Below, piece by piece: positions 5,225 to 20,647 of a stretch of DNA of 21,316 nt; the first letter of the stretch is position 1; each line of letters starts with the position of its first letter. Both the position numbers and the translations under genes were made by a program. Below the pieces are notes generated by a model. It saw only the letters and a list, made by a program, of their open reading frames with translations. It searched no databases and was not told the origin of the DNA. The stretch is from a virus, in the IMG/VR virus record IMGVR_UViG_3300030012_001023, positions 8,086-29,401 of that record; one strand, written 5' to 3'.

Positions 5225-5359
5225 ATGGCAAGATTAACAACAATAACAAGGACAGAAAACTCGAAAGTAAAAAGACCACAGACACACGCAAAGAGCAAAA
5301 GTAGTAAACTAAAGAGCTCTAAGAACTACAAAAAGAAATATAGAGGTCAAGGTAGATAA
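5225..5359 (+). CDS. 44-residue very basic protein
   Basis: Translation from ATG at 5225 gives 44 residues with about one third Lys or Arg, starting MARLTTITRTENSKVKRP and ending YRGQGR, with a Ser/Lys-rich centre. I recall short basic proteins with the same kind of ending in other phages of Bacteroidota, but cannot confirm this here. Such a protein would bind nucleic acid or be packaged with it. A promoter lies about 50 bases upstream. A different frame starting with ATG at 5179 overlaps most of it; that start would be leaderless and its composition is less protein-like, so I prefer this frame. It is the first gene of the rightward arm and is followed by the structured RNA. Confidence 0.65.
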   Translation: MARLTTITRTENSKVKRPQTHAKSKSSKLKSSKNYKKKYRGQGR

Positions 5360-5376
5360 TAATTAAATATTTTTTA

Positions 5377-5384
5377 TAACTTTG
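5377..5384 (+). promoter_or_regulatory. Promoter -7 element directly before the structured RNA
   Basis: TAACTTTG, followed by CA, fits TAnnTTTG exactly and follows an AT-only tract. The predicted start near 5388-5392 coincides with the first paired bases of the folded region. No upstream TTTG is seen at the expected spacing. Confidence 0.6.
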
Positions 5385-5389
5385 CAGAC

Positions 5390-5675
5390 TGAGGCACTCT
5401 CACCAGAGTATCACCCCTGAGGATCGAAAGAGCAGTAGGGGGTCAGACGTTGGATTGTAGGTCCTAAATAAGGACTAGAGTTTTCTCCAATAGCCTCACA
5501 AAAGAAAGGTATAGAACCTAGTTGGGATAGAATACATATTAGGTACGTGTGGTGAATTAACACCGAGATAATTATCCCTGGGTCTTCTCACAGAAGAAAG
5601 CACTGCTAGGTTTAAAGTCCTGACTGAAATTAAAAAAGGCGATAGTCGCTAGGGGGAACCTGTATTCAGACTGCA
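5390..5675 (+). ncRNA. Candidate structured RNA, or long structured leader, of unknown class
   Basis: About 290 bases with no credible reading frame, visibly richer in G and C than the flanks, starting at a promoter. The 5' domain closes with TGAGGC (5390-5395) and GCCTCA (5493-5498). It contains three hairpins: 5396-5400 with 5405-5409; 5413-5418 with 5437-5443, capped by a GAAA tetraloop at 5426-5429; and 5458-5465 with 5471-5477. The 3' domain has hairpins at 5507-5519, 5524-5529 with 5573-5578 (enclosing 5551-5554 with 5561-5564), 5583-5588 with 5592-5597, and 5607-5612 with 5657-5662 (enclosing 5639-5642 with 5646-5649). It is not recognisable as tRNA, tmRNA, RNase P RNA, or a group I or II intron. 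No U tract follows, so it may be the leader of the gene at 5691 or be processed. A packaging or capsid-associated RNA is one possibility, unproven. Confidence 0.6.
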
Positions 5676-5690
5676 CATATATTTATAATT

Positions 5691-5912
5691 ATGGGAAAAT
5701 CAAAACCAAACAATCCTAGCCTGTGGTCACGAGCAAAAGCTGCGGCCAGAAAGAAGTTTAAGGTATATCCATCTGCGTATGCTAATGCGTGGGCTTCTAA
5801 ATGGTACAAGTCAAAAGGTGGCACATGGAGAGGATCTGATAACAGAGTAAAAAAGAAAAGAGCTGAGAAGGGCGGATTTGTTATGGAGAAAGGTCCAGCT
5901 AAACTAGACTGA
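5691..5912 (+). CDS. Small basic phage protein, NPSLW-type family
   Basis: A 73-residue protein strongly enriched in Lys and Arg with several Trp and Tyr residues. The core reads N-P-S-L-W-S-R-A-K followed by a K-F-x-V-Y-P-S-A-Y-A-N-A-W-A-S-K-W-Y segment. I recall this pattern from small unannotated proteins of large phages and some algal viruses, where the function is not known; that link is from memory. There is no signal peptide or catalytic motif. Basic charge and location at the head of the virion module suggest nucleic acid binding or a minor virion component. Its ATG is 15 bases past the structured RNA, and the next gene begins two bases after its stop. Confidence 0.8.
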   Translation: MGKSKPNNPSLWSRAKAAARKKFKVYPSAYANAWASKWYKSKGGTWRGSDNRVKKKRAEKGGFVMEKGPAKLD

Positions 5913-6190: not shown

Positions 6191-6223
6191 TTTGCTTTTG
6201 TAAAGTATTTTGTTATAACTTTG
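6191..6223 (+). promoter_or_regulatory. Bacteroidota-type promoter for the co-chaperonin gene
   Basis: TTTG at 6191-6194 (-33) and TAACTTTG at 6216-6223 (-7) are separated by 21 bases, and the second element is followed by CA. Transcription would start near 6230, leaving a leader of about 18 bases to the ATG at 6248. This is the most complete plus-strand promoter in the window. Confidence 0.72.
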
Positions 6224-6247: not shown

Positions 6248-6532
6248 ATGGCAGATAATTTAAATTTTAAACCTTACGGGAACTGGTTAGTATGTCCAGA
6301 CCCAACTACCAAGAAAACAAAATCAGGAATCATCTTAGATGATGATACAGCAAAGAAGCTAGCTACTAATATTCTTACAGTATTAGAGGCGGGGCCTTCT
6401 TGTGTTATGGCATCTGTGGGAGATGAAGTTATGGTTAATCCTATGGCAGAAGCTATGAAGATGACTATCAATGATGTACCTTGTATCTTAGTTAGTGAAC
6501 ACAACATACTTGGAAAATTTGATAACAACTAA
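6248..6532 (+). CDS. GroES-like co-chaperonin
   Basis: A 94-residue protein, the normal length of the GroES (Cpn10) fold. It starts with the K-P-Y-G-N-W-L-V strand, then a T-K-K-T-K-S-G-I-I-L-D segment (residues about 21-31) that matches the mobile loop, whose G-I-I-L tip docks onto GroEL. The later V-L-E-A-G-P, V-G-D-E-V-M-V and I-L-V-S-E-H-N-I-L-G strands fit the closing parts of the family. The likely role is to replace or adjust host GroES so that host GroEL folds the phage capsid protein, as gp31 of phage T4 does. It has its own promoter and heads the run leading to the terminase. Its 3' end overlaps the next gene. Assignment is by motif; binding is inferred. Confidence 0.82.
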   Translation: MADNLNFKPYGNWLVCPDPTTKKTKSGIILDDDTAKKLATNILTVLEAGPSCVMASVGDEVMVNPMAEAMKMTINDVPCILVSEHNILGKFDNN

Positions 6533-7566: not shown

Positions 7567-8086
7567 TAATGTAGCAATACCTAGTGCATATACTATGACT
7601 ATTCTAGAGTTTGGAGAACTAGTTAGTAGAGATAAAACTAAAGGTAAGAACAGGGCATCTAAAGAATTAGCATACGTATATTTTATGGAGGATCATAGAT
7701 CACCATTTGCAGTGTATGGTAAAGACGAAAGACATGGTGAAGTACTAGTCAATGTATTTGGACCAGAGTCAGAATGGACAGCTGATGCTAAAGTTAAAGC
7801 AGCATGCGATGTATACAGAGGATTGATAGAAACATCAGCTGTAAGATTACTAAAAGCAGCAAGAGAATCTGTACGTAAGTTGCAGAAGTATTTTGAGACT
7901 GTAGATCTTACTATGATGGATGATAATGGTAAACCAATCTTTCATGCTAAGGACTTAATTGCTAACCTATCTAATATGGGTAAAGTAGTAAATGGTCTTA
8001 CAGATTTAGAAGATTTAGTTAAGAAACAGGAACAACAGGCAAATTCTAATAGAGGAGGAGTTGTAGTTAACAAATATAGTTCGTAG
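7544..8086 (+). CDS. Terminase-adjacent protein of unknown function
   Basis: A 180-residue soluble protein with a beta-type start and a long helical middle (residues about 80-150, with Y-R-G-L-I-E-T-S-A-V-R-L-L-K and V-R-K-L-Q-K-Y pattern), ending in a Gln- and Asn-rich tail. No named family is recognised. The position, two genes before the large terminase and after an HU-like gene, is where a small terminase subunit would be expected, and helical oligomerisation is compatible. It lacks an obvious helix-turn-helix at its N-terminus, which argues against. Call it a possible small terminase at best. It overlaps the HU-like gene by 23 bases. Confidence 0.8.
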   Translation: MDLITIDNNVAIPSAYTMTILEFGELVSRDKTKGKNRASKELAYVYFMEDHRSPFAVYGKDERHGEVLVNVFGPESEWTADAKVKAACDVYRGLIETSAVRLLKAARESVRKLQKYFETVDLTMMDDNGKPIFHAKDLIANLSNMGKVVNGLTDLEDLVKKQEQQANSNRGGVVVNKYSS

Positions 8087-20615: not shown

Positions 20616-20647
20616 ATCATCCCCTGAAATATGGGGATGATTTTTTA
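20616..20647 (+). terminator. Intrinsic terminator after the 353-residue structural gene
   Basis: ATCATCCCC (20616-20624) pairs with GGGGATGAT (20633-20641) around an eight-base loop, then a T run of seven (20641-20647) broken by a single A before more T. This is a textbook rho-independent terminator and marks the end of a strongly expressed unit. Confidence 0.85.

Follow-up and report, generated by a model that had tools for sequence, protein, structure and literature searches.

What occupies the roughly 290 bases that separate the divergent gene arms of this phage? The window, meaning the whole stretch analysed, spans 21,316 nucleotides (positions 8,086 to 29,401 of IMG/VR virus record IMGVR_UViG_3300030012_001023). 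A first-pass annotation had described a gap without genes following a TAnnTTTG element, and had read it as a possible undescribed structured RNA with a packaging, regulatory or leader role. Comparison with relatives shows that the + strand at 5391-5669 is a real two-domain structured RNA with a conserved tail, located at the point where the phage arms diverge (Table 1). The gap is indeed free of genes, as its longest stop-free frames have a median of 51 aa across 53 full-length homologues, compared with 56 aa in shuffled sequence. A coding region was rejected on this basis.

Table 1. Coordinates of the RNA, its parts and its neighbours in the window
Feature	Position	Strand	Basis or remark
44-aa basic ORF ending in NYKKKYRGQGR and a stop, unlisted	5225..5359	+	just upstream of the RNA
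TAnnTTTG (-7) promoter element, Bacteroidota type	5377..5384	+	sequence; 14 nt before P1
Structured RNA, ~280 nt	5388..5669	+	domains I and II and 3' tail; >120 viral stretches, covariation
Domain I	5391..5497	+	A1, A2 and A4 pair counts; tree-aware test
P1 (closing stem of domain I)	5391-5395/5493-5497	+	A1, A2 and A4 pair counts; tree-aware test
P2 hairpin (domain I)	5396-5399/5406-5409	+	
P3 hairpin (domain I)	5413-5418/5438-5443	+	small inner stem 5424-5425/5430-5431
P4 (domain I)	5449-5454/5486-5491	+	capped by P5
P5 (domain I)	5461-5465/5471-5475	+	
Domain II	5503..5625	+	unsupervised RNAalifold on A5; tree-aware test
P6 (domain II)	5503-5509/5619-5625	+	
P7 (domain II)	5515-5516/5611-5612	+	
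P8 (domain II)	5524-5530/5572-5578	+	
P9 (domain II)	5534-5537/5547-5550	+	
P10 (domain II)	5551-5554/5561-5564	+	
P11 (domain II)	5581-5587/5596-5604	+	
Conserved 3' tail, consensus ~ARGGGGNNNNNTRTRTC	5650..5666	+	A5 alignment and other lineages; no pairing partner shown
First downstream gene, 73-aa basic protein (weak DUF5872, Pfam)	5691..5912	+	start ~22-24 nt past the tail
Second TAnnTTTG	6216..6223	+	precedes the GroES-like gene
GroES/Cpn10-like co-chaperonin gene	6248-6532		GroES PHROG/Pfam; own TAnnTTTG

Comparative evidence for a two-domain RNA

Among terminase relatives taken from viral contigs, the stretch could be aligned in ~26 distinct ones, some of which are only 71-76% identical over the RNA with the stems visibly kept. 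A DNA pattern built from two conserved words of domain I retrieved at least 120 viral stretches, while a second retrieved 75 and a third 47, including 27 new loci. The first pattern also matches bacterial genomes, where the sequences show part of the matches to be chance. At E<=1, a covariance model made from 40 close relatives (R1) matched 86 places across 90 further viral loci, and 82 of these loci, all distinct, were matched at E<0.01. In 36 bacterial loci it matched 32 places at E<0.02. A second model (R2), made from the broad alignment A4, matched 27/27 further loci that had been pre-picked by pattern, and the E-values of both models are rough. A weak hit in L047, scoring 18.7 bits and then 14.6, probably arose by chance. 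Neither model found the RNA in ten named crAss-like, Flavobacterium and Cellulophaga phage genomes, blastn of phage records returned short chance matches only, and tblastn of TerS found no named phage. As the set was gathered with fixed words, the true spread of the RNA is probably wider.

The folding energy of the single sequence is at chance level (MFE -74.1 kcal/mol vs. a shuffled mean of -73.2, z -0.18), hence proof of structure must be comparative. Alignment A1 was made with MAFFT alone from 40 domain I sequences of close relatives; under the structure named from it, 98.9% of cells pair and double changes occur at 13 pairs. The covariation score of this alignment is 0.306, compared with 0.128 when shuffled and <=0.088 when the partners are slid. 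Model-fitted alignments, which are biased towards structure and in which the invariant CCC/GGG and GG/CC pairs are partly set by the search pattern, gave scores of 0.561 and 0.614 (the latter for A4) against ~0.16 shuffled (A4: 0.161). For domain II, unsupervised RNAalifold on alignment A5 produced 28 pairs with compensatory changes in 14.

A tree-aware test modelled on R-scape was applied to the unbiased alignments A1 and A5, with substitutions re-placed randomly on a FastTree tree and an APC-corrected G statistic scored for all column pairs more than 3 apart. At E<=0.05, 5 of 7,140 column pairs were significant in A1 (domain I) and 5 of 11,628 in A5 (domain II), and all ten fall within the proposed helices. 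Chance folding is thus ruled out by covariation despite the unremarkable single-sequence energy, and the compensatory changes by which the first-pass annotation had suggested its fold be judged are present. The cells of A4 contain 163 G.U against 15 A.C, indicating that it is the + strand RNA, in the direction of the late arm, that is under selection. An antisense functional strand was rejected because it forms fewer pairs (88.9% vs. 95.8% on the + strand in A4) and the G.U excess lies on the + strand.

The architecture drawn by eye in the first-pass annotation is borne out by comparison. Its closing stem, placed at 5390-5395 with 5493-5498, corresponds to P1, which varies among relatives (GAGGC/GCCTC, GAAGC/GCTTC, GAGAC/GTCTC) and remains paired. 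The three hairpins within it are P2, P3 with its inner stem, and P4 capped by P5, and the second domain, credited with at least six stems, contains about six helices (P6 to P11). Full-length members are 251-328 nt long (53 homologues). In some crAss-like members (L008, L036, L068, L111, L150) an insertion of tens of nucleotides, which has apparent stems of its own, expands the region of the P5 hairpin. An early idea that the 3' tail pairs with GGTATAG was dropped as the covarying P6 is preferred.

Genomic setting in phages and bacteria

The RNA is found in two phage lineages that share no packaging genes by blastp clustering, with 39 crAss-like loci and 38 loci carrying TerS, TerL and a P22-like portal. 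Where both neighbours could be scored, the nearest upstream gene runs leftward and the downstream gene rightward at 59 loci, compared with 8 in any other arrangement, and each of 8 long viral contigs has one strong copy. A TAnnTTTG element is positioned ~12-16 nt upstream of P1 in 30 of 77 distinct viral loci; in other phage loci the stop codon that ends a small gene immediately precedes P1. Endings like that of the small upstream ORF of the window precede the RNA in many crAss-like relatives, and in other relatives the ORF ends in DPDCENCGS and a stop. GC and AT skew switch sign at the RNA, which is expected from the gene orientations alone.

The distance from the end of the tail to the first late start codon is 3-60 nt in most of 71 loci, and this gap is usually without a promoter whatever the first gene is. 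By inspection, first genes encode a SET-like protein, a small acidic protein before TerS, or tail or holin-like proteins. When a GroES-like gene comes first, a promoter usually lies within the ~56-83 nt between the RNA and the gene. The GroES/Cpn10-like gene is conserved within the crAss-like late core. In the window, PHROGs confirmed the terminase large subunit, portal and major head protein. No terminator was found at the 3' end of the RNA in the window, and the late arm shows only one strong internal terminator, where a hairpin and T run like those of an intrinsic terminator lie between late genes (20616-20641, +). In the second lineage the small terminase is extended at its N terminus, with ~95 additional aa ahead of the TerS domain (L077 ORF 434-1174 from the RNA start; homologues in ~37 loci).

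In bacteria the RNA is rare, occurring in 2/199, 2/198, 3/396 and 2/341 genomes (~0.5-1%), counts that each include the starting genome. In Flavobacteria it heads a ~1.1 kb cassette with a 64-86 aa protein and an HTH_17 protein, which is present in several genomes and repeated within some. This repeated element (L298, L299, L300, L330) has no transposase and may be a minimal satellite; its second tandem copy in L298 is missing most of the RNA. Sequence inspection places a tyrosine integrase next to the RNA in L304 and L306 and a Sak4-like ATPase near it in L306 and L331. In Belliella the RNA adjoins a type IIG restriction-modification system, a Cyclobacteriaceae MAG has homologous neighbours, and in one further genome a copy adjoins Cas9. 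Copies beside defence genes (L308 5967-6115, L212 6277-6419) are too few for an association to be drawn. A contig labelled Endomicrobium (L307) looks like a crAss-like phage.

Two rumen Bacteroidales MAGs, RUG14866 and RUI415, harbour dispersed intergenic copies of domain I alone, 15 in one and 12 in the other. Each is followed by a short 3' hairpin and often also by a GC-rich terminator-like hairpin, and the copies are mostly convergent with the next gene (L234, L224, L225 and others in RUG14866; L215, L249 and L276 in RUI415). Most RUI415 copies have a TAnnTTTG promoter, and most consist of promoter, RNA and GC-rich terminator-like hairpin with no gene behind. A co-oriented gene directly behind the RNA is likewise absent in Belliella, the Cyclobacteriaceae MAG, the Flavobacteriaceae locus L305 and the dispersed Bacteroidales sets. 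The copy in the cultured Belliella buryatensis 5C is a solitary one.

Relation to known RNA families

Rfam 15 gave no family at the gathering threshold over the RNA, in the window or in diverse members, and at E<=5-10 (window and 14 loci) yielded only tRNAs elsewhere and chance miRNA and scaRNA matches. A known Rfam RNA, a tRNA and a tmRNA were rejected as identities. No description of such an RNA was found in the literature, of which coverage was partial. Together with the covariation, these results bear out the proposal that the RNA is undescribed and fits no known class. Newness is judged here against Rfam and the literature, with the published Bacteroidetes candidates Bacteroides-2 motif and HMP2_4078 outside the comparison. 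A new class in this sense means one belonging to no known family; its mode of action may prove to be a known one.

Among the closest parallels in kind are GOLLD and ROOL, large and elaborate phage-borne noncoding RNAs which were found by covariation and whose functions are still open (PMC12286853). The present RNA resembles them in these respects. However, GOLLD and ROOL are ~600-800 nt or more, often lie near tRNA islands and are in Rfam, whereas the present RNA is 250-330 nt and sits at the head of the late arm. Neither a covariance match nor a member above 600 nt was found.

The put RNA of phage HK022, EAR/epsC and JUMPstart are structured leader elements that are located near the start of long operons and act via the polymerase. 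The present RNA likewise heads a long co-oriented operon, with its transcript start placed from the promoter motif only. These elements are smaller than the present RNA, which no Rfam model for an element of this kind matches. Both epsC and JUMPstart are listed in PMC2864571.

Like phi29 pRNA, this is a phage-encoded folded RNA. However, pRNA comes from phi29-like phages with a different motor, whereas the present RNA is carried by two unrelated terminase systems and is not always adjacent to packaging genes; pRNA gave no match over the RNA, assuming Rfam holds a pRNA model. The 6S-flavo RNA (RF01685) is also a Bacteroidetes noncoding RNA. Unlike it, the present RNA is rare, mobile and not a housekeeping gene, and 6S-flavo gave no Rfam hit. 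Rfam searches found no match to the catalytic core of group I or group II introns. A group I intron had been considered as R- and S-like words could be picked out by eye, but the P7 partners mismatch and no model hit was obtained.

Possible functions

The constancy of place, strand and spacing in phages favours a leader of the late transcript, while the solitary and dispersed bacterial copies suggest that domain I is useful alone, most simply by binding a conserved partner. Combining the two, the reading we tentatively prefer is that the late transcript begins with a leader RNA whose portable host-factor-binding domain promotes late expression. A long structured leader is thus the best-fitting of the functions guessed in the first-pass annotation, and the mechanism given here is one we infer. 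Transcription of the RNA would start at a host-type promoter of its own or continue into it from a small upstream gene, making it the 5' leader of late mRNA. Domain I would act as a portable unit, using its invariant unpaired loops to bind a conserved factor of Bacteroidota, most probably RNA polymerase or the ribosome. The bound RNA would then favour the long late operon through polymerase read-through or control of translation start past the tail. Satellite-like elements and host copies may use domain I to tap or titrate the same factor.

Some observations count against a leader. GroES-first phages have a second promoter between the RNA and the gene, the late arm has a single strong internal terminator, and the bacterial copies without a co-oriented gene behind them are better explained by a trans-acting RNA. 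Such a noncoding RNA, processed from the late transcript or independent of it, ranks close behind the leader as a possible though less probable account. Its target would be a host machine (polymerase, ribosome, or a defence or RNA-decay factor), acted on for take-over or counter-defence, and satellites and host copies would exploit or titrate that same target. This is consistent with the solitary bacterial copies, the retention of domain I alone, the gene-less units of RUI415, the neighbouring type IIG system and Cas9, and the extra promoter behind the RNA in GroES-first phages. The very constant place and strand of the RNA in phages, and its similarly constant proximity to the first late start codon, argue against it, as does the lack of a terminator at the RNA 3' end in the window.

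The late leader with a portable domain is set against three further readings, each of which is improbable. One is that the RNA acts, where the arms diverge, as a primer for replication or an origin transcript, which would suit the skew switch and the Sak4-like or RepA-like ATPases (by inspection) that adjoin the RNA in some bacterial elements. However, the skew also tracks gene orientation, multi-copy chromosomal forms would be senseless for a primer, and a primer needs no such extensive structure and loop conservation.

Slightly less probable again is a packaging RNA, or a transcribed pac element, that works with the terminase and is common to helper phages and satellites. The RNA does occur on satellite-like elements, and one lineage has terS (PHROG terminase small subunit) within ~0.5 kb, followed by terL and portal. 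However, the distance to terL varies up to 9.7 kb, with tail-fibre or holin-like genes coming first in many crAss-like loci, and the terminases of the two lineages are non-homologous by blastp. Cultured crAss-like phages among the named genomes lack the RNA, copies are dispersed in chromosomes, and there are bacterial copies that have no packaging genes close by. The packaging role suggested in the first-pass annotation hence gains no specific support.

Least probable is a mobile ribozyme (intron-like or self-cleaving) in intergenic DNA. In its favour are the dispersed copies, the abutment of P1 on upstream stop codons in some phages and, in Polaribacter L270, a downstream gene that by inspection alone resembles a homing endonuclease. 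Against it are a constant phage location, no match to group I/II introns or any ribozyme family, and no empty site in the TerL relatives L040 and L048, where tail genes fill the sequenced flank.

The preferred leader reading and its trans-acting competitor both place a host factor at the centre, and conservation across different terminases, satellite-like elements and multi-copy chromosomal sets suggests a shared host target. This structured RNA is widespread and deeply diverged in crAss-like phages and in other, mainly marine, phages of Bacteroidota, and it is apparently unlisted. Like GOLLD and ROOL, it bears on the still open question of the role of large phage RNAs, and its size of ~280 nt makes it tractable for structural and genetic study. 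It is conceivable, if doubtful at present, that it represents a new phage RNA class in which a portable multi-stem-junction domain captures a core Bacteroidota machine. Two unrelated phage lineages would use it to run their late programme, satellites would parasitise it, and some hosts would employ it as multi-copy decoy or regulatory RNAs. The host target, if found, would show how these abundant and poorly understood phages switch on their late genes and explain what a host gains from a dozen copies of one domain.
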